Virus record (IMG/VR): IMGVR_UViG_3300028829_004147
Location: 1-25,423 of that record
From: a virus
DNA length: 25,423 nt
Reading direction: 5' to 3' (one strand)
In this document: in pieces, positions 12,843 to 25,181 of the stretch
Position numbering within the stretch: the first letter of the stretch is position 1
How the letters are laid out: the number at the start of each line of letters is the position of its first letter
Translations under genes and position numbers: made by a program
Notes under the pieces: generated by a model
Database searches by the model: none
Seen by the model: the letters and a program-made list of their open reading frames with translations, nothing else
What the model was told of the DNA's origin: nothing

Positions 12843-15251
12843 ATGGCAGAGAGAATAGTAAGTCCTGGTGTATTTACCAGAGAAAAAGATTTATCTTTCT
12901 TACCACAAGGAATTTCAGAAATTGGAGCAGCATTAATTGGACGAACAGAAGAAGGTCCAGCATTTGTTCCAACACAAGTAAGAAATTTTGCGGAGTTTGA
13001 AGAGATATTTGGTAGCGAAAACCAGAATTTTTATGTTCCTTTTACAGCAAAGGAATACTTACGAAGCGCAGGAACGGTAACAATCGTTCGTGTACTAGGA
13101 CTTGGCGGATATCAAAATGACTTTATAGCATTGGGATTGTCGGGTTCATTTGGTGGTTCAACAAATCAACACCAAATAGCAGCAGTATTAAAGCCGTCAG
13201 CAGGCGGTCTTACACTTGATTTAGATGGGGCATCCAGTGCTTCATTTTCAGTAAGTAGTAGTTGGAGTTCATCCACATTAAAAGTAACAAATGGTTCAGG
13301 TGGATTCGATACCCACTCGTTCTCATTTAACACAGGTTCAGCAGAATATATTGACAAAGTATTTAGTTCAGACCCATTAACTACCGAAAAGGGCGTATAT
13401 TTATATAAAAATTATATGGATGTTCAAACAATGGGTGGTATGGATTTAAATGTATCTGCAAGTATAGCTAGTGGTAGTACAAATAGTTTCTTATTTGACT
13501 ACAAGGTAGCTACAACACCTTCAATACAATCACAATTAGTTGGTGGTTCAAGAACAAGTTTATTTAAAGTAAATACTCGTTCACACGGAGACGCTCAAAA
13601 TTCAAAATTTAAATTAGCAATACGTGATATTAGAGAGCCAGTAGATGTAGCAGGAAGTGATTATGGTGACTTTGCTATTGAACTTAGAAGAAACAATCCA
13701 GGTCAAAACAACGATAATGAAGTCTTAGAAAGCTTCCAAAATTGTAATTTTGATGAGGATTCAGTAAACTATTTACCAAGAAAAATTGGTGATAGATATG
13801 TAACTATTGATTCAAATGGAAAATTAACCACTAATGGTGATTATCCAAATCAATCTAAGTTTATTTACATTAGTGATTATACTAGCTTAGTTGGAATTTC
13901 AAAAGGATTAGTTCCTATGGGATTCGGAGCAGTATCATCACCACACAACTCAACATTAGCACTTGACGATAGATTTAAACCATCACTTGATTCATTAGCA
14001 ACAATTCCTTCAGCTTCATTTAAAGGAAACTTCAACGAAGGACAATTAAATAAGTCTGGAAATTTTGATGCGAATGTATTCTATGGTTTTGATTTTGATA
14101 GAGAAACTAACAAACAATATTTAGCACCATTACCATTGAGTATTAGTAATACAACAGGTAATGTTACTATGAGTTTAGAAAATCAATTAGGACACGCAGA
14201 CGCTTCCACATTAGGAACAACATTTTCTGACGCAAGTGAGAAAATTACATTAGCACTTTCTCACAAAGACCAGAGAAAGTTCGTTGTACCGTTTCAAGGT
14301 GGTTTTGATGGATTAAATCCAGCAGTAACAGCATCAGTTGGTTCAGCAATAACTGCAGCTAATTCACAAGGATTTGATTTTACTACATCACTTTCAAGTG
14401 GTTCAGTAGCATTTAAACGAGCAATCAATGCAGTATCCAATCCAGATGAGTTCGATATTAACTTGTTGGTAACACCAGGTATTATCCACTCAATACATCC
14501 AAGCGTAACAAATCACGCTATTTCAAAAGTAGAAGATAGAGCAGATTGTTTCTATATTATGGACGGGTCAGTATATGGTCGTTCAATAGACAATGCAGTA
14601 GCTGATGTTAAAACATTGGATAGTAATTATGTAGCAACATATTATCCTTGGGTTAAAGTAATTGATGAAGTTAAAAACAAACCAACTTGGGTTCCACCAT
14701 CAGTAGTATTGCCAGGTGTATATGCAAATACTGATAGAGTAGCTCACGAATGGTTCGCACCAGCAGGTCTGAATCGTGGTGGTTTACAAAATGTAACAGA
14801 AGCTCAAACAAGGCTAACGCATGCGGAAAGAGATGAATTATACGAAAATCGTATTAATCCTATCGCAACTTTCCCAGGTCAAGGTGTAGTAGTGTTTGGA
14901 CAGAAAACTCTACAAGGAAAACCAAGTGCATTAGATAGAATCAATGTAAGAAGATTGTTGATTAGACTTCGTAAGTTTATCGCATCTACTTCAAGATTCT
15001 TAGTGTTTGAACAAAACAACAATGCAACAAGAAATCGTTTCTTGAATCTTGTAAATCCTTTCTTAGAGCAAGTTCAAGCAAACTCAGGATTGACAGCGTT
15101 TAGGATTGTAATGGACGAAAGTAATAATGGTCCAGATGTTGTGGATAGAAACCAATTAGTTGGTCAGATATTCATACAACCAACCAGAACAGCTGAATTC
15201 ATAGTCTTAGATTTCGTAGTTCAACCAACAGGAGCAGCATTTGCAGACTAA
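12843..15251 (+). CDS. 18: Contractile tail sheath protein, gp18-like
   Basis: ATG 12843 has AGGAG at 12831-12835. The 802-residue product starts with the sheath hallmark MAERIVSPGVFTREKDLSFL, then AALIGRTEEGPAFVPTQVRN and YLRSAGTVTIVRVLGLGGY. The C-terminal sheath domain is clear: LNRGGLQNVTEAQTRLTHAE, DELYENRINPIATFPGQGVV, FGQKTLQGKPSALDRINVRR, and the terminal FIQPTRTAEFIVLDFVVQPT. It polymerises around the tube and contracts at infection. It is longer than T4 gp18 (659 aa); the extra length lies in the middle (about residues 100-480), probably surface-exposed insertion domains. It has its own promoter motif and a strong terminator, so it is expressed as a single-gene unit. Confidence 0.96.
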   Translation: MAERIVSPGVFTREKDLSFLPQGISEIGAALIGRTEEGPAFVPTQVRNFAEFEEIFGSENQNFYVPFTAKEYLRSAGTVTIVRVLGLGGYQNDFIALGLSGSFGGSTNQHQIAAVLKPSAGGLTLDLDGASSASFSVSSSWSSSTLKVTNGSGGFDTHSFSFNTGSAEYIDKVFSSDPLTTEKGVYLYKNYMDVQTMGGMDLNVSASIASGSTNSFLFDYKVATTPSIQSQLVGGSRTSLFKVNTRSHGDAQNSKFKLAIRDIREPVDVAGSDYGDFAIELRRNNPGQNNDNEVLESFQNCNFDEDSVNYLPRKIGDRYVTIDSNGKLTTNGDYPNQSKFIYISDYTSLVGISKGLVPMGFGAVSSPHNSTLALDDRFKPSLDSLATIPSASFKGNFNEGQLNKSGNFDANVFYGFDFDRETNKQYLAPLPLSISNTTGNVTMSLENQLGHADASTLGTTFSDASEKITLALSHKDQRKFVVPFQGGFDGLNPAVTASVGSAITAANSQGFDFTTSLSSGSVAFKRAINAVSNPDEFDINLLVTPGIIHSIHPSVTNHAISKVEDRADCFYIMDGSVYGRSIDNAVADVKTLDSNYVATYYPWVKVIDEVKNKPTWVPPSVVLPGVYANTDRVAHEWFAPAGLNRGGLQNVTEAQTRLTHAERDELYENRINPIATFPGQGVVVFGQKTLQGKPSALDRINVRRLLIRLRKFIASTSRFLVFEQNNNATRNRFLNLVNPFLEQVQANSGLTAFRIVMDESNNGPDVVDRNQLVGQIFIQPTRTAEFIVLDFVVQPTGAAFAD

Positions 15252-15457: not shown

Positions 15458-15853
15458 TTACTTAGGATAAATAGCAAAGGTATCGGCGTATTCAGCCAAA
15501 CAATAACCTTGAGCTCTTACATAGCCGTAATGTGTTTTGCTACAACCCCTATACTTAATTCTATAATTGCCAGTCTTCATCATAGTTCTAACCACAGCAT
15601 TCCATCTATACATCATAGGAATACCCTTATATAAAGCTTGTTCAAAGTAAGGAGCTTCATAGTCTTCCAACCTAACAGCCGGTTGATTAGTATTAGCTTC
15701 ATACAATTCCATAGGATTGTGTGCATATTGATAGACATTCATAGTAAATGTCCTATTGTCAAAACCAAAAGCTCTTGGAACTTTCGTATCAGCAAAATCT
15801 CTCATATAAATACCTTCGGTATCAGTTGTAATCGTTTCATTATTTTCAATCAT
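15458..15853 (-). CDS. Unknown 131-aa protein on the opposite strand
   Basis: On the minus strand the start is ATG at 15853-15851, with AAAGGA 7 nt upstream. The frame opens eight codons further, but that start lacks an SD. The 131-residue product begins MIENNETITTDTEGIYMRDF and includes VPRAFGFDNRTFTMNVYQYA, GIPMMYRWNAVVRTMMKTGN and two cysteines near the C-terminus (YRGCSKTH and GYCLAEY). It is rich in Tyr and aromatic residues, with no membrane segment. I do not recognise it. A TTGACA-17-TATATT promoter stands upstream. It interrupts the sheath-tube order on the opposite strand, so it looks like inserted cargo, probably expressed early (inference). Confidence 0.75.
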   Translation of the reverse strand: MIENNETITTDTEGIYMRDFADTKVPRAFGFDNRTFTMNVYQYAHNPMELYEANTNQPAVRLEDYEAPYFEQALYKGIPMMYRWNAVVRTMMKTGNYRIKYRGCSKTHYGYVRAQGYCLAEYADTFAIYPK

Positions 15854-15885
15854 TTCGTTTTCCTTTATCATTATCATAACACTAT

Positions 15886-16151: not shown

Positions 16152-16640
16152 GTGGCAGATTTTATAGACCCAAATGAAATGTTTTTTACACCATTTGAAC
16201 CAAAGTTATCAAATAGGTTTATTATGAACATTGAGGGTATTCCAGCATTTTTGGTTAAAACAACAGGAAGACCTAATTTAAATTTAAACGAAGTTGCACT
16301 TGACCATATTAATGTTAAAAGATATGTTAAAGGTAAAGCTGAGTGGCAAGCACTTACAGTAACTCTTTATGACCCAATCGTTCCAAGTGGAGCACAAGCA
16401 GTTATGGAGTGGGTAAGATTACATCACGAATCAGTAACAGGTCGTGACGGATACTCAGACTTCTATAAAAAAGATATTACATTTAATGTATTAGGACCAG
16501 TTGGTGATAAAGTAGAAGAGTGGACTTTAAAAGGTGCATTCATCACTGCAGCTAACTTTAGTGATATGGATTATTCAGCAACTAATGTTTCTGATATTTC
16601 ATTAACACTAAGATACGATTACGCAATCTTACAATTCTAA
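16152..16640 (+). CDS. 19: Tail tube protein, gp19-like
   Basis: GTG start at 16152 with AGGAG at 16140-16144; no ATG fits in frame nearby. The 162-residue product is the size of T4 gp19 (163 aa). It has FEPKLSNRFIMNIEGIPAFL, VKTTGRPNLNLNEVALDHIN, ALTVTLYDPIVPSGAQAVME and the ending VSDISLTLRYDYAILQF, all typical of the tube fold. It forms the stacked hexamer rings inside the sheath, around the tape measure. It is split from the sheath gene by the minus-strand island; in T4, 18 and 19 are adjacent. Confidence 0.95.
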   Translation: MADFIDPNEMFFTPFEPKLSNRFIMNIEGIPAFLVKTTGRPNLNLNEVALDHINVKRYVKGKAEWQALTVTLYDPIVPSGAQAVMEWVRLHHESVTGRDGYSDFYKKDITFNVLGPVGDKVEEWTLKGAFITAANFSDMDYSATNVSDISLTLRYDYAILQF

Positions 16641-16907: not shown

Positions 16908-17678
16908 ATGGCTGAAAATCAGTATGGATTTCCTACTGAAGTTCTATCTTTACCATCAAAGGGAATATTATATCCCGAAGATAGTCCTTTGCGTAGTGGA
17001 ACAATCGATGTCAAATATATGACAGCAAAAGAGGAAGATATCTTAACTTCCACAAATCTAATTCAACAAGGTAAAGTAATTGAAAGACTACTGGAAAGTG
17101 TAATTGCTAACCCACAGGTTAAAATAAATGATATGTTAATCGGTGATAAAAATGCACTTATGGTTGGAACTCGTATTTTAGGGTATGGAAAGGATTACAA
17201 TTGTGTAATCTCTGACCCAGATACTAATGAAAAAGTTGATGTAGTCGTAGACTTAACAGAATTAGAACACAAAAAAATAGACGAAAAACTATATGAAAAT
17301 GGTAATAGCTTTACATTTGAATTACCAAATTCAAAAAGAGTCGTTGAGTTCAAACTACTAACTCAGAGTGATGAAACTAAAATTGATGAAATTCTTAAAG
17401 ACTATGAAAAATTAACAAAACTAACTGGTATTGATAAAACTTTAACTACAAGATTAAAGTATCAAATAGAGTCAATAGACGGAGATAAAGACCAGAAAAA
17501 GATTGATAGTTTCGTAGATAATGAATTTTTGGCAATGGACGCAAAAGCATTTAGAGTTTATAGAGAGTCGATTGAACCAGACATTATCTTGAAATTTGAC
17601 TATGTAAGTCAAACTGGTGGGAATCATAAAGTTGATATTCCGCTTGGGGTCGAATTTTTTTGGCCAGCCGCCGAGTAA
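16908..17678 (+). CDS. 26: Baseplate hub / tail assembly chaperone, gp26-like (zero frame)
   Basis: ATG 16908 has AAGGAG at 16893-16898. The 256-residue product opens with VLSLPSKGILYPEDSPLRSG and MTAKEEDILTSTNLIQQGKV, the pattern of the T4 baseplate/gp26 family (SLPSKG-x-x-YP, then MTAKEE-x-IL). It ends in DIPLGVEFFWPAAE. Such proteins act in hub and tape-measure assembly. Just before the stop lie a T7 run (17655-17661) and a stem-loop (17666-17688) with the TAA in its loop. A +1 shift would extend the product into the next ORF, giving about 323 residues. Both the short and long forms are probably made (inference). Confidence 0.85.
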   Translation: MAENQYGFPTEVLSLPSKGILYPEDSPLRSGTIDVKYMTAKEEDILTSTNLIQQGKVIERLLESVIANPQVKINDMLIGDKNALMVGTRILGYGKDYNCVISDPDTNEKVDVVVDLTELEHKKIDEKLYENGNSFTFELPNSKRVVEFKLLTQSDETKIDEILKDYEKLTKLTGIDKTLTTRLKYQIESIDGDKDQKKIDSFVDNEFLAMDAKAFRVYRESIEPDIILKFDYVSQTGGNHKVDIPLGVEFFWPAAE

Positions 17679-17880
17679 TAGGGCGGCTATTCACGAAGAA
17701 ATCTTTAACATAGCATATTATGGAAATGGGTTCAACCACAACGAACTCTACAATATGCCAATACCTTTGAGAAGATTTTATGCTCAAAAATTAGTTGATG
17801 CCAAAACAAAGGAAGCGAAACAAATTGATGAAATTAGAACTAATAACGGACAACCAGATAACTTTGGTCCAACTCAATGA
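17617..17880 (+). CDS. 51: gp51-like C-terminal chaperone domain, probably expressed by +1 frameshift
   Basis: This +1-frame ORF overlaps the gp26-like gene. Its earliest start, GTG 17617, has no good SD, and the first segment is simply the other frame of the upstream gene. The meaningful part begins near 17662. It reads NRAAIHEEIFNIAYYGNGFN, then HNELYNMPIPLRRFYAQKLV and a charged helix ending in QPDNFGPTQ. The IHEEIF..YYG.GF...LYNMP..LRRFY pattern is that of conserved phage tail chaperone C-terminal domains. With slippage on TTTTTTT the domain is joined after residue 251 of the upstream protein. It lies just before the tape measure region, as G/GT does in lambda. Confidence 0.75.
   Translation: MGIIKLIFRLGSNFFGQPPSNRAAIHEEIFNIAYYGNGFNHNELYNMPIPLRRFYAQKLVDAKTKEAKQIDEIRTNNGQPDNFGPTQ
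17655..17688 (+). promoter_or_regulatory. Probable programmed +1 ribosomal frameshift signal
   Basis: Zero-frame codons TTT TTT TGG contain T7 (17655-17661). Moving one base forward lets tRNA-Phe re-pair with TTT perfectly. Four nt later comes a perfect 7-bp GC-rich stem AGCCGCC (17666-17672) / GGCGGCT (17682-17688), striking in this AT-rich DNA. The zero-frame stop TAA (17676-17678) lies in its loop. A -2 slip would reach the same frame. Confidence 0.7.
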
Positions 17881-18178: not shown

Positions 18179-20038
18179 ATGGCAAAATCAAAATCAATAC
18201 TTCAAATAGAGGCGTTGGCCTCAAATTTAGAAAAACTAAATAGTAGGGTAGAGAATGCCTCTGCAGTATTACAACAACTTGAACTTGATGGTAAAGATAC
18301 TACTCAAGCAAAAATTGATGAAAAGAACGCCAAAAATAAAGCCAAACTTGTTCAAAAAGAATACAATGATATTGTCGGTGAATCAGCTCAAACATTTAAA
18401 ACCTTAGCAGAAGATTTAAGAAATTTTTCATTTGAAGTAAATAAAAATAAAGATGCACTTGGAGCTTTTGGAATAAAGTCAAATGATTTAGGACAAATAT
18501 TTTCCCAACTAACAGACACACAATCTACCTTAACGACTGAAATAGAACAAAGAAAAAAAGTAATTGATGAAACTGCAAATTTATCCAAGGAAAGAAGAGA
18601 TGTATTAGAAGAAGAAATAAGAGAAAGGGAACACGCTAATACATTATATAAAGGGATAAATACAGGTTTATCTGATGCAGTCAAAAGTATTGAAAAGATA
18701 GGTATGGGTGGAAATACCACGATAGATTATCGGGCGAGAGCATTACAAAGACAACAAGCTGGAGGAGATGCAGATTTAAATACTGCACTTGATGCACAAT
18801 TTGGTTTGGAAGACGCAGTCGTTGGTGCAAATAAATCATTTCAAGAAACAGTAGGTGTTGTTGGTAAAGTAAAAGACGGAATCACGGACATTACTGATAA
18901 AATTCCACTAATTGGTGGACGAGTTTCAAAGTTTATAAATGGACAATTTGATAAAGCAGTTTCAATAATAGAAGGAGACCTTCAAGAATCACTTGACGGA
19001 ACAGAAGAAGGACTAAAAAAGACAGGGATACAGGGAAGAATTTTAAATATGATTATGAAAGCTAATCCACTTTTAATCTTCGCTAGTGTAGTGATAGGAA
19101 TTGCACTGGCTTTTAGAGGTTTAAACAAAGCTGCAAGAGATTTATCAAATGAATTAAGTATGGGTAAAGACCAACTTGACGGACAATTAGCATCATTAAA
19201 AATGCAACAACTTCAATTTGAATTGATTGGACTTGACGCTGAAAAAATAAAAACAACACTCACAACCTTATCCACAGAATTTAAAGATTTAGAATTAGTT
19301 ACTGCAGAAAACGCAGCAAACATTGAAAGGTTTGCACAGAACTCTGGTGTTGGTGGTGACGAAGTTGCAAAACTAACCAAACAATTAATGATTACGGAAG
19401 GTATTTCATTTGATATGGCGTTGAGTATGCAGGAACAGGCAGCAGCAATGGCCAAAACAGCCGGTATTGCAAAGGGTAGTATTCTATCTGATATGGCGTC
19501 AAACGCCGAGTCCTTTGCAAGATTCTCACAACAAGGTGCAGAGGGATTAGCTGAAGCCGCAGTTGCAGCAAATCAAATGGGATTAAACTTAGAAAAAGTA
19601 TTAAAAGTTGCTGGAGATTTATTAGACTTTGAGGGTAGTATAACGAAAGAATTTGAAGCACAAGTTTTAACTGGTAGAGCTATAAACTTAGAAAAGGCCA
19701 GACAGGCAGCATTATCTGGTGACCAAGATTCATTAATGAGAGAAATTAAATCCGTCGCAATGGGTGTTAATTTAGAAACTATGAATGTAGTTCAAAAAGA
19801 TGCAATTGCAGGAGCGATTGGATTATCAGTATCGGACTTAATGAGAGTAAGTCGTGGTGAATCATTGGATAAACAAGAAACACAAATAGATTTACAAAAG
19901 AAAACAAATGATATATTAATCGCAGGGTTCAATGAAGAATCAGATGTATTAGACAAAATCGCAAACAACACAGAAAAATCAGCAGGTGGACCTAATATGT
20001 ATGGTGGTATAGTAGACTCAAATGTGAATATGGGATAA
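18179..20038 (+). CDS. 29: Tape measure protein, gp29-like
   Basis: ATG 18179 lies in an A-rich stretch with no clear SD; coupling or the A-rich leader may help. The 619-residue product has an N-terminal coiled coil (about 1-170), a hydrophobic segment NPLLIFASVVIGIALAFRGL (about 296-315) and a long helical region with EGISFDMALSMQEQAAAMAK. Ala/Gly-rich helices follow: AEGLAEAAVAANQMGLNLEK and ITKEFEAQVLTGRAINLEKA. Tape measures set tail length; at about 0.15 nm per residue this predicts roughly 90 nm, near the T4 tail (gp29 is 590 aa). It sits just after the chaperone pair, as in other tailed phages. Confidence 0.85.
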   Translation: MAKSKSILQIEALASNLEKLNSRVENASAVLQQLELDGKDTTQAKIDEKNAKNKAKLVQKEYNDIVGESAQTFKTLAEDLRNFSFEVNKNKDALGAFGIKSNDLGQIFSQLTDTQSTLTTEIEQRKKVIDETANLSKERRDVLEEEIREREHANTLYKGINTGLSDAVKSIEKIGMGGNTTIDYRARALQRQQAGGDADLNTALDAQFGLEDAVVGANKSFQETVGVVGKVKDGITDITDKIPLIGGRVSKFINGQFDKAVSIIEGDLQESLDGTEEGLKKTGIQGRILNMIMKANPLLIFASVVIGIALAFRGLNKAARDLSNELSMGKDQLDGQLASLKMQQLQFELIGLDAEKIKTTLTTLSTEFKDLELVTAENAANIERFAQNSGVGGDEVAKLTKQLMITEGISFDMALSMQEQAAAMAKTAGIAKGSILSDMASNAESFARFSQQGAEGLAEAAVAANQMGLNLEKVLKVAGDLLDFEGSITKEFEAQVLTGRAINLEKARQAALSGDQDSLMREIKSVAMGVNLETMNVVQKDAIAGAIGLSVSDLMRVSRGESLDKQETQIDLQKKTNDILIAGFNEESDVLDKIANNTEKSAGGPNMYGGIVDSNVNMG

Positions 20039-21544: not shown

Positions 21545-21850
21545 ATGTCAAGATACGATAATCAAACAATTTTAAAAGATGAAAACGGAACAAGATATTT
21601 AGGTCAAACTCAGTATCCTAAAATCCCCATTAGAGATTCTGATATTTTTATTCAAGGACAATATGGTAAAAGGTTGGATAGTTTAGCTTATGATTATTAT
21701 GGTGATGTTCAATTGTGGTGGGTAATCGCTAAGTCAAATCCAGAAAATCAATCCAATGGTAGTTCTATGTATATGAACCCAAATAAACAATATAGAATAC
21801 CTACCAGTATTGGTCAGATATTAGCTGACTATGAGGCTTTGAACGACTAA
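21545..21850 (+). CDS. 53: Baseplate wedge protein with LysM-like domain, gp53-like
   Basis: ATG 21545 has AGGAG at 21535-21539, overlapping the previous stop. The 101-residue product includes YGKRLDSLAYDYYGDVQLWW followed by VIAKSNPENQ, and later QYRIPTSIGQILADYEAL. The D-x-LAYxxYGDxQLWWVIAxxN pattern matches the LysM-like fold of T4 gp53 and P2 gpX-type baseplate proteins, which hold wedge components together. It is about half the length of T4 gp53 (196 aa), keeping mainly that domain. Its stop overlaps the next ATG by 1 nt, so it is coupled to the hub gene. Confidence 0.75.
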   Translation: MSRYDNQTILKDENGTRYLGQTQYPKIPIRDSDIFIQGQYGKRLDSLAYDYYGDVQLWWVIAKSNPENQSNGSSMYMNPNKQYRIPTSIGQILADYEALND

Positions 21851-22830
21851 TGAGTGCTTTTGAAGCAAAACACATCAAACCAAGTGTTAAAAGAGCAATC
21901 TTTAAAAAAATAGAGGCACTTAACAAAGTAGGGCTTACCGACGATAATCCAACTTTGAACCCAAATCGTGATACTAAAAACTCAATACCAAGTTTTGATA
22001 CTTCAGCATTGGAACCAAGAAGTAATAGAGATGGTTTAGAACAAACTAATGCACTTTCATATCAATTGGTTCGTAATACTTTCGTCAGACTAAGTGTGGA
22101 TATACCACTTGAGAATGAAGAAGGTGAAACATCAACTGGAGTATTAAATTTTGCAAGTTATATTAAACCAACGGAGTCTGAAAATAGACTCGGAACTAAA
22201 ATTCAAACAAACACACCATTAGCTTTTAATAAAAGTCCTTTCACCAATGATAAAAAATTTATATGGAGAGGACATACTGGAATTACGAGTGTGTCAGTTA
22301 CACAGAAAACATTTTTCATTAAAGAAATTCAAGTAGGTTGGGAGTGTCCAGACCCAATAGATTTTGAAGAAAGAGTATTACCTTTCTTTTTACAACACGG
22401 AAGACTTATGGTAGTGGAATTTGGTTGGGGACTTGATAGTGATTTAGGAAATTTAAAAGTTCCACCATTGACAAAAAACAATATGAATAAGTTTTTGAAA
22501 AACTTACAAGAGAGAAATAACAAATCAGTAGATTCATATCAAGCGGAGGCAGGAGTTGTAACATCATATAATTATAGTATTACAGACGAAGGTGGATACA
22601 AAGGAACTTTAAAAATTACTTCAAGAGGAGAAAATCCACTCTATACACCAATTCCAAATCTTGATGATACAGAAGAACCAAACCCATATGTAAAGTCATA
22701 TACAAGAAGCACTGGTAGTCTATCAGTCGAACGAGCAGTTAACCAAACCATAACATTTCGTGCAACGATTAATAATTTAGAAGACTTCATTACTGATTAT
22801 TTGAAGAAGACTTCATTACTGATTATTTGA
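21850..22830 (+). CDS. N-terminal part of a split large baseplate hub-like protein
   Basis: ATG 21850 overlaps the previous stop. The 326-residue product includes TFFIKEIQVGWECPDPIDFE, then VLPFFLQHGRLMVVEFGWGL, and YNYSITDEGGYKGTLKITSR with GENPLY. This is a pattern I associate with gp27/VgrG-like hub proteins of environmental phages. It ends EDFITDYLKKTSLLII at TGA 22828-22830. The ending is caused by a 26-bp tandem duplication (22780-22831). Removing one copy joins it in frame to the next ORF, giving one protein of about 1,101 residues. Confidence 0.75.
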   Translation: MSAFEAKHIKPSVKRAIFKKIEALNKVGLTDDNPTLNPNRDTKNSIPSFDTSALEPRSNRDGLEQTNALSYQLVRNTFVRLSVDIPLENEEGETSTGVLNFASYIKPTESENRLGTKIQTNTPLAFNKSPFTNDKKFIWRGHTGITSVSVTQKTFFIKEIQVGWECPDPIDFEERVLPFFLQHGRLMVVEFGWGLDSDLGNLKVPPLTKNNMNKFLKNLQERNNKSVDSYQAEAGVVTSYNYSITDEGGYKGTLKITSRGENPLYTPIPNLDDTEEPNPYVKSYTRSTGSLSVERAVNQTITFRATINNLEDFITDYLKKTSLLII

Positions 22831-22831
22831 A
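22780..22831 (+). repeat. 26-bp perfect tandem duplication, frame-breaking
   Basis: The two copies occupy 22780-22805 and 22806-22831; each begins GAAGACTTCATTACTG and ends in TTATTTGAA. 26 is not a multiple of three, so the second copy shifts the frame and creates the TGA at 22828. The second copy in turn creates the TTGA start/stop overlap. Confidence 0.95.
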
Positions 22832-25181
22832 CGAACCAAACTCAGAAGGTATACGCACTAACACCCTTTCCGAAAAACGAGTTGACTTGGTAGGACAAAG
22901 TAAACAAGATAGTCGGAAAAACCGAGGATTCAGAATACAACATATCTTTAAAAAAGGTGCACTATCAACCAACTTTAAATACATAATAGGTTCCGATGCT
23001 GGTGGTAGAAGAGAAGCAGGTACGGGAACCTCGAGTAAATTGTTACCAAAATTAGAAAGTTCAAATAATCTATATTGTAGTTGGGGTTGGTTTGAAGATG
23101 TGATTTTAAATTCATTTTTTAAAATAGATATCATCGATGACAATGACGGGAAATTTCCATTTCAAGAAATAAGAAGTGTTCACTCACCTTATAGATATGA
23201 ACTAAACAAAACTGAACTTGACAAAGTAAGCTTTAAAGCTTTCAATGATAGTGAACCTACACCAACAGACATAATTGATAGTAAAGAATTATTTTCAAAT
23301 CGTTGTAATAACAATCCAAATTTATATTCATTAGGATTTGATGATATTATTCTACCAGGACAATATTATAACATAGCTGGTAATACAAGAAATACCATAG
23401 AAAAAGATTTAAAAAAAGGTGTTCGTCCAGATGAAAAAAGTAGTGGAAATATTAAATTAAAAAGAAAAGATAAAATAGATTTAAATAAAAGATTAAACCA
23501 AATAATTTATTTTGAAAAACTTTCTGAACTCATTGATGAGAAATTTAAACCATTCGGTAAACCAAATGAATATTATGGTAATATAAGAAATATGGTATTT
23601 TCAGTAGATTATTTAAAAAGTCATTTTGAAAATATAAATTCCGTAGAAGAAGGATTGAGAAGTTTATGGTCAGATGTATCTTCAAAATATGGTGGATTTT
23701 TTAACTTTACAATATATCCAGATGAAAAAAATAACGGAACCATTGGTATCAATGACCAATACTATATGAATCCAATAGAAAGAGATGAGGGATTATTAGA
23801 TGAATCAAACGTAATAAATTACGAAAAATACATTGAGGGTAAAAAATCTTTGTCAAATCCAAATGATATGATGCAATTTAGTGTTTTTTCAAAAGATAGT
23901 ATTATATCATCATACGATTTAAATTTACAACTAACAAAAGAAGCCGCAACATTAGCATTGTATGGTGGACAACAAAAACTTGCAAATGGTAATTTTACAA
24001 ACTCATCAACAATATACGATAAAGGAATAGAGGGATATACTGCATTACAAAATGCAATTATTCCTGACTTTAAAAAATCAAATAAAAACTTAAAGTTAGG
24101 AAAAGACAAAAGAATTGTAGACCCAATTGTTATTAAAGAGTTTTCAACACCAATTACAGATGATGGAGTGGGATTAGATTTAGTAGATTACAACAAAGAC
24201 TCAAATTTTATTAGTGAACCAACAGGTTCAGTTTCTCTTGGATTTAAAGATGTATTTTCTATAAGTAAAGATTTTAAAAAACTTAAAGATGAGGTAGAAA
24301 AAAAACTAAAAGAAAGTAAAGAACTATCTGAGGGAGAGTCAGCTGACGAAAGTGCTCCAGAACCAACATCATTAGATTTGGCATACCCATTAAATTATGA
24401 TAATAATGGTGGTTTAAGTGATGAATCAACGAAAAGATTTTTATCAAAATTAAATCACTCTAATTATTTAGGTGATAAATCCAATTGGACAATACAAAAA
24501 ACGATTATACCGATTGATTTAGATTTAACGATTGATGGAATAGGTGGTTTAGTGCCGGGTAATTTATTCAGAATAGACTTTTTACCTGAAACTTATCGTA
24601 AATATACATACTTTATAATAATGTCAATCAATCATTCAATCACTACTTCTGGTTGGTCCACATCAATTAATGCAAAAATGAAATTAGACTTTCCAAAAAT
24701 GATTAAAGATAAGTTAGTTGTAACTGAAGTGGGAACATCAGAACCAAAAACAACAATAGAAAGTTCGGAACCAATTAATCCAAATATATCTTCAGATGTT
24801 CTTAAAGAAAATGAAACTCAAATAACTGCAGTAGGTGGTATAACTGAATCATCATCAGTTCCAGCAAATTCATATAGAGTTCCAGACGAAGCTGCTGGTT
24901 TAACATTAAGAGAGGCTACAGATGAAGGGATTATATCTGCAGAACAATTAGACAAAATAGACAAACTTAGAAAATTCCATAGAAAATTAAGAAAGCGTTA
25001 CAATATTCCTTTCAATGTTGTATTTATAAAAAGAACTATTGAGGGGGAAACCTATTACGACGCACTACCAGGACCTGGATTTTCAACGGATTGGGAAAAG
25101 TCAGGACAGGTTAGATATCTTGAAGGTGAAAGAGTTGTTCCCCCAAGTAACGCTGGTGGAGGTGGAGGCGGAGCCGGATAA
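22827..25181 (+). CDS. C-terminal part of the split large baseplate hub-like protein
   Basis: The frame opens at TTG 22827, overlapping the upstream stop (TTGA), without an SD; it could be reached by re-initiation. It reads NEPNSEGIRTNTLSEKRVDL onward for 784 codons. It contains NLYCSWGWFEDVILNSFFKI and a region at about 566-625 with LTIDGIGGLVPGNLFRIDFL, YFIIMSINHSITTSGWSTSI, a pattern typical of phage hub/gp27-like domains. It closes with a helical segment (EQLDKIDKLRKFHRKLRKRY) and a glycine-rich tail GGGGGGAG. It was very probably part of one gene with the preceding ORF. The hub anchors the central spike and caps the baseplate centre. Confidence 0.75.
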   Translation: MNEPNSEGIRTNTLSEKRVDLVGQSKQDSRKNRGFRIQHIFKKGALSTNFKYIIGSDAGGRREAGTGTSSKLLPKLESSNNLYCSWGWFEDVILNSFFKIDIIDDNDGKFPFQEIRSVHSPYRYELNKTELDKVSFKAFNDSEPTPTDIIDSKELFSNRCNNNPNLYSLGFDDIILPGQYYNIAGNTRNTIEKDLKKGVRPDEKSSGNIKLKRKDKIDLNKRLNQIIYFEKLSELIDEKFKPFGKPNEYYGNIRNMVFSVDYLKSHFENINSVEEGLRSLWSDVSSKYGGFFNFTIYPDEKNNGTIGINDQYYMNPIERDEGLLDESNVINYEKYIEGKKSLSNPNDMMQFSVFSKDSIISSYDLNLQLTKEAATLALYGGQQKLANGNFTNSSTIYDKGIEGYTALQNAIIPDFKKSNKNLKLGKDKRIVDPIVIKEFSTPITDDGVGLDLVDYNKDSNFISEPTGSVSLGFKDVFSISKDFKKLKDEVEKKLKESKELSEGESADESAPEPTSLDLAYPLNYDNNGGLSDESTKRFLSKLNHSNYLGDKSNWTIQKTIIPIDLDLTIDGIGGLVPGNLFRIDFLPETYRKYTYFIIMSINHSITTSGWSTSINAKMKLDFPKMIKDKLVVTEVGTSEPKTTIESSEPINPNISSDVLKENETQITAVGGITESSSVPANSYRVPDEAAGLTLREATDEGIISAEQLDKIDKLRKFHRKLRKRYNIPFNVVFIKRTIEGETYYDALPGPGFSTDWEKSGQVRYLEGERVVPPSNAGGGGGGAG

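Follow-up and report, generated by a model that had tools for sequence, protein, structure and literature searches.

How does a virus express a conserved protein segment that lies in the +1 frame across the end of the gene preceding it? The question is raised by a stretch of 25,423 nucleotides (IMG/VR virus record IMGVR_UViG_3300028829_004147, positions 1 to 25,423; hereafter the window), in which an open reading frame ending ..GVEFFWPAAE-TAA contains TTTTTTTGG just upstream of its end, with a seven-base T run at 17655-17661 read in frame as TTT TTT TGG. The +1 frame is open from GGC at 17662 through 17880 and carries IHEEIFNIAYYGNGF..YNMPIPLRRFY. A preliminary description of this DNA had noted both the FFWPAAE-stop ending and the open, conserved-looking +1 domain, which is indeed kept in relatives, and had proposed a programmed +1 frameshift in a T4-type chaperone before the tape measure gene, a reading that comparative evidence now bears out, with +1 favoured over -2.

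The gene, its neighbours and its products

The relevant features of the window are as follows.

12843..15251, plus strand: tail sheath protein (PHROG 23, 6e-76; Pfam Phage_sheath_1, 8e-16)
16152..16640, plus strand: tail tube protein (PHROG 4542, 4e-30)
16908..17678, plus strand: zero-frame ORF, short form, gp26-like tail assembly chaperone (TAC-N), 256 aa (PF12322, PHROG 150, AlphaFold)
17655..17663, plus strand: T-run slip site TTT TTT TGG (invariant in 71 distinct close relatives)
17676..17678, plus strand: zero-frame stop TAA, within the hairpin loop (sequence)
17662..17880, plus strand: +1-frame extension, 72 aa, beginning GQPPSNRAAIHEE (conservation; profile matches to the gp51 C-terminal part)
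16908..17880, plus strand: predicted long product, gp51-like (TAC-NC), 323 aa, via +1 frameshift (PHROG 150 match)
18179..20038, plus strand: probable tail tape measure gene, 619 aa (by synteny; in Flavobacterium phage immuto the gene in the same place is annotated as tail tape measure protein)

The zero-frame protein matches the Pfam family PF12322 (T4_baseplate) at 6e-9, with 36.3 bits against a cut-off of 24.5, and PHROG 150 at 1.4e-10. With the extension included the PHROG 150 match reaches position 281 of 282 and scores 50.6 bits instead of 42.1, and the same group is matched by all 67 of 67 long-form relatives. On this similarity the short and long products of the one gene are assigned as a T4-type tail assembly chaperone pair. 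The gene order of the window (sheath, tube, chaperone gene, large ORF) agrees with the annotation of immuto, and it is on this synteny that the large ORF is probably the tape measure gene.

The two parts of the long product were modelled separately with AlphaFold. In BFVD the zero-frame model (pLDDT 91.9) finds phage proteins of the gp26/gp51 kind. The best PDB matches of its N-terminal fold (residues 3-95) are YqbN, an XkdN-type tail chaperone (3klu, Z 5.5), and the tail assembly chaperone of HK97 (2ob9, Z 5.0), ahead of a next score of 3.9 and a remainder at or below 2.7; Foldseek alone gave no significant match in the PDB for this model. These scores are modest, and in the same modest measure the predicted fold agrees with the chaperone reading. 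The extension is modelled as three helices (pLDDT 82), and a fold search with it returned no significant match.

Two further peculiarities of the window lie outside the chaperone gene. A minus-strand ORF of 139 aa (15458-15877), opposing the operon direction in the sheath-tube interval, has no Pfam match. At 22780-22831 a perfect 26-bp tandem duplication, of a length not divisible by 3, divides an apparent single hub-type gene into ORFs at 21850-22830 and 22827-25181, and is probably an assembly artefact or a mutation, not a programmed event.

Conservation of the overlapping frames

Relatives drawn from IMG/VR (80 of the zero-frame protein, 73 of the extension) gave 138 loci, 71 of them distinct. 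All loci extending past the junction (138; 71 distinct) have TTTTTTTGGCC, the +1 extension and a loop that holds the zero-frame stop, and T7GGCC is invariant across the 71. Variability at codon positions 1, 2 and 3 is 0.31, 0.23 and 0.49 upstream of the run, counted in the zero frame, and 0.15, 0.08 and 0.38 downstream, counted in the +1 frame, the third-position peak moving from one frame to the other at the T run in these 71 relatives. By this pattern both frames are under purifying selection. An alignment of homologues, earlier put forward as a check, thus finds frames, T run and stem-loop kept throughout the close relatives, although the stem-loop is limited to this clade and a few neighbours. 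Both slip-site Phe codons are TTT in all close relatives, other Phe codons of the gene being TTC about one time in five; a conserved UUU by itself is weak proof, because about 80% of Phe codons in these genes are TTT.

Wider-family scans with the alignment and distant members, blind to the slip site in their selection, yielded 129 distinct junctions, a few of which overlap the first set; the two sets combined amount to 201. A -1 shift on an X_XXY_YYZ heptamer would place the extension in the -1 frame, whereas in the window and at 126 of the 129 junctions it lies in +1 (equivalent to -2). Of the three exceptions, L338 (TTC TTG) and L343 (TTC CTT T) have, at about 2690-2800 in each, an altered site and an ATG-led extension in a different frame, so that a separate start has apparently replaced frameshifting naturally, while in L270 (about 2720-2790) the extension follows TTC TTT TGG in the -1 frame, by error or as a real switch.

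Site types across the 201 junctions are TTTTTTTGG (140), TTTCTTTGG (38), TTCTTTTGG (10), TTTTTTTAC (8), TTTCTATGG (3) and two singletons, a count made with the slip-site pattern, which on its own therefore cannot prove other sites absent; a T or C after TTT is also partly expected, Phe being mostly TTT in these genes. The FF/FL pair is followed by TGG in 191 cases and by TAC or TAT in ten, and in the UUU_C group the would-be A-site codon is CTT or CTA. The same +1 offset occurs in the isolates Mel-JY01, immuto, GXN1, SP-15, RM378 and LIS04, whose records have no joined gene at the locus and present the long product only half annotated or divided into two. Judging from these sequences, the arrangement appears to be kept in hundreds of related viruses, a large and mostly uncultured group.

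Direction of the shift

Cognate +1 re-pairing of tRNA-Phe at TTT TTT TGG, from UUU to UUU or UUC, had been pointed out for the window and is possible in every site group. The same frame would be reached by a -2 shift as in phage Mu, which adds one Phe, the predicted junction peptide of the window being VDIPLGVEFFGQPPSNR for +1 and VDIPLGVEFFFGQPPSNR for -2. Re-pairing at -2 is permitted in the P site by the U7 of the window just as well as at +1, and is possible also at TTT CTT T sites; furthermore, an altered spacer turns HIV U_UUU_UUA to -2, and Mu gpGT is naturally -2 (PMC3498833). However, at TTC TTT TGG (10 distinct), at TTT CTA TGG (3 distinct) and at the TTC TTT CGT of phage GXN1 a -2 shift needs a mismatch where +1 pairs. 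Because of the mismatches at the TTC TTT T and TTT CTA sites, -2 is an unlikely route to the long product, and the slip is likely, by a wide preference, to be +1. A +1 site of the UUU_C kind has been demonstrated by mass spectrometry in influenza PA-X (PMC3498833). There, on UCC_UUU_CGU, the P-site tRNA-Phe likewise moves from UUU to UUC; UUC_UUU_CGU of the Streptococcus phage GXN1 resembles this site and shares UUU_CGU with it, although PA-X belongs to a eukaryotic virus and is unrelated to the window gene.

Signals around the slip site

Two elements flank the run in the window.

17646..17648 (GGGG at 17646-17649), plus strand: GGG Gly codon, SD-like upstream element, 6 nt upstream of the T run
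17666..17688, plus strand: stem-loop, perfect 7-bp stem with the zero-frame stop in its loop (covariation, folding z)

Where Gly is encoded at -9 from the run, its codon is GGG in 112 of 147 junctions (76%) and in 61 of 64 within the window clade, against 7% of 2500 other Gly codons in the gene, counts that, like related ones, are not independent events because the sequences are related. No reading-frame cause for this preference was found. We infer that the selected GGG is an SD-like pairing element that would aid the shift, the use of SD pairing in the host being uncertain; the element is short and missing from some groups of +1 junctions.

The perfect 7-bp stem-loop described earlier as following the run after 4 nt and enclosing the TAA stands at the coordinates given for it. 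Its arms, AGCCGCC (17666-17672) and GGCGGCT (17682-17688), are separated by a 9-nt loop (17673-17681) that holds the stop, and the stem begins four bases (GGCC) past the run. Compensatory changes are seen at two of the seven pairs, and the covariation score of 0.182 (0.058 when shuffled) is reached in 0 of 500 shuffles. Folding z averages -3.4 over 72 sequences of the window clade and is near 0 on average elsewhere; outside this clade only a few neighbours have the hairpin, most of the family being without it. As a stimulator for the entire family it was rejected on this z of about 0 beyond the window clade, and its start only 2 nt past the A-site codon, closer than stimulators usually lie, is a point against it. 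By comparison across groups, the deeper features of the family are the UUU_U/UUU_C slip site and the upstream GGG.

Relation to T4 gp26 and gp51

The frameshift had been described as joining gp26-like and gp51-like chaperones, a view that has to be revised. T4 gp26 and gp51 both belong to PF12322, gp51 carrying an additional C-terminal part, and are encoded by divergently oriented paralogous genes; gp26 is the counterpart of the short product and gp51 of the whole long one, so that in T4 the two forms come from two genes. What was called gp51 in the +1 frame matches only the C-terminal extension of that protein. T4 and the window thus have in common the N-terminal family, a short and a long form and the same type of C-terminal extension, but T4 uses two paralogous genes and the window one gene with a frameshift. 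Hub assembly chaperones is the heading under which both T4 proteins are listed, with gp51 given as essential and of unknown function (PMC3004832).

The connection runs through cyanophages. In profile comparisons the long form of the cyanophages aligns with gp51 along its length (98.9%, 1e-17) and with gp26 only up to the slip site (98.5%), and the cyanophage extension matches the gp51 C-terminus (98.1%, 8e-14). The match of the window-type long form to the cyanophage long form in turn spans 282 columns and takes in the extension (97%, 1e-10), and the window-type extension matches the cyanophage extension (93.5%, E 2e-7). Compared directly with T4 gp51, the long-form profile gave no significant match and the extension a weak one (28%), so that these intermediates are needed. 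By way of them, and of the match with PHROG 150 that reaches position 281, the extension is homologous to the gp51 C-terminus.

A probable -1 counterpart in cyanophages

In T4-like cyanophage homologues T_TTT_TTC stands directly before the stop in 50 of 50 distinct junctions, and the extension lies in the -1 frame wherever the contig is long enough to show it. Upstream, the Glu codon at -14 is GAG in 35 cases to 4 (GAG being 26% elsewhere) and forms GGAGG, whose last G is 9 nt upstream of the heptamer, its duplex with the anti-SD having an energy of -7.5 kcal/mol on average; the dnaX -1 site has a similar SD spacing. The GGG of the +1 clade is nearer its slip site, at 6 nt. The invariant heptamer and the GGAGG were seen in loci L167-L246, the cyanophage gp26 homologues. 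In Synechococcus phage Sf-CH11 the extension is annotated separately, as a baseplate hub assembly catalyst. Two large phages, Atu_ph07 and PA5oct, have T_TTT_TTC at the end of a gp26-like gene with an open -1 frame beyond (L165 and L166), and there the annotated gene does not include the extension.

Window and cyanophages therefore share a homologous gene and extension, the same FF position and a short product that stops just past the site, but differ in that the cyanophage shift would be -1 on U_UUU_UUC behind a GGAGG, and that of the window +1 on UUU_U/UUU_C behind a GGG. It is conceivable, at somewhat below even chances, that homologous chaperones shift oppositely at one U-rich FF site, that SD-like spacing sets the direction and that the window-clade hairpin sequesters the stop. 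That spacing determines direction is put forward here as a hypothesis, not as a result.

Alternative explanations

The extension might be a coupled but separate gene, translated from a start codon of its own. In many cyanophages an ATG of the extension lies immediately 3' of the stop, L338 and L343 have ATG-led extensions, and in the window GTG and TTG codons precede the run in the +1 frame, so that the earlier remark that the domain lacks a usable start has to be refined for the window itself. It does hold for 32 of 74 distinct close relatives, which have no ATG, GTG or TTG between the last +1-frame stop, only 12-18 nt upstream of the GGC codon, and the domain. Across the combined set no such codon precedes the domain in the extension frame at 79 of 201 junctions, where the extension is expressible only via a change of frame, nor is one in reach at 9 of 48 cyanophage -1 junctions; moreover, the +1-frame residues directly past the slip site are conserved. 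An independent start is rejected for many junctions because no start codon exists there, and as a general account it is very improbable.

Slightly less probable still is transcriptional slippage at the T run, by which some mRNAs would carry one U fewer or two more. Homopolymer runs can cause such slippage, but the same architecture is found at 52 of 201 junctions where the T run is four or shorter (TTTCTTTGG, TTCTTTTGG, TTTCTATGG, TTTCTTTAC), and a covarying hairpin lying downstream would be unable to act on polymerase at the run. Transcriptional slippage is rejected because a quarter of the junctions lack a long homopolymer. A homopolymer sequencing or assembly error, or a decayed gene, was earlier considered the main alternative, and a single metagenomic contig with a homopolymer does invite that suspicion. 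However, the 138 loci (71 distinct), which come from many metagenomes, have the same T7 and offset, as do the isolated phages Mel-JY01 and RM378, and purifying selection acts in both frames; with so many independent contigs and isolates in agreement, error is rejected and its likelihood is negligible. That the frame change is an evolved feature is, on this comparative evidence, near certain.

Proposed mechanism and its meaning

In the mechanism we favour, most ribosomes would translate 16908-17678 into the short gp26-like chaperone, and a fraction would shift +1 at GGG..TTT TTT TGG, the P-site tRNA-Phe leaving UUU at 17658-17660 to re-pair with UUU at 17659-17661 as UGG occupies the A site. 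Shifted ribosomes would read on to 17880, giving the long gp51-like chaperone with its 72-aa extension, predicted to be helical. The SD-like GGG and, in the window clade only, the hairpin enclosing the zero-frame stop would each probably raise or tune the rate. As in lambda G/GT, the short form may coat the tape measure and the long form recruit tube protein. Taken as a whole, this model is highly probable.

The likeness to lambda G/GT is one of arrangement: the gene follows the tube gene and precedes the probable tape measure gene, its frames overlap at a conserved slip site, the downstream frame lacks its own start in many relatives, and a long form would be made by frameshifting. Lambda, however, shifts -1 and the window gene would shift +1, and no sequence relation to G/GT was shown. 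With prfB (RF2) it would share +1 P-site slippage and perhaps an SD-like G run upstream, but its A-site codon is UGG and not a stop, the SD spacing is longer and a hairpin lies downstream. A +1 shift has been proposed for haloarchaeal HSTV-2 (PMC5009743), and +1 cases are present in SEA-PHAGES data (PMC10885494).

A 2016 recoding review treated T4 as an exception to conserved G/T frameshifting (PMC5009743). Vladimirov 2022 is cited in the PRFect paper for the two-gene short and long forms of T4 (PMC10885494) and in the Adele paper for T4-like chaperone genes with -1 poly-T sites (PMC12846349), so both of these were already known; as far as those citing papers convey its content, the +1 version, its signals and the switch of direction appear to be new. 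T4-type relatives would use frameshifting widely and in both directions, T4 itself having two gene copies. One homologous site used in both directions may serve as a natural experiment on what determines the direction of slippage, and for T4 gp51 the comparison offers a concrete idea, namely that it would be the long, GT-like chaperone.
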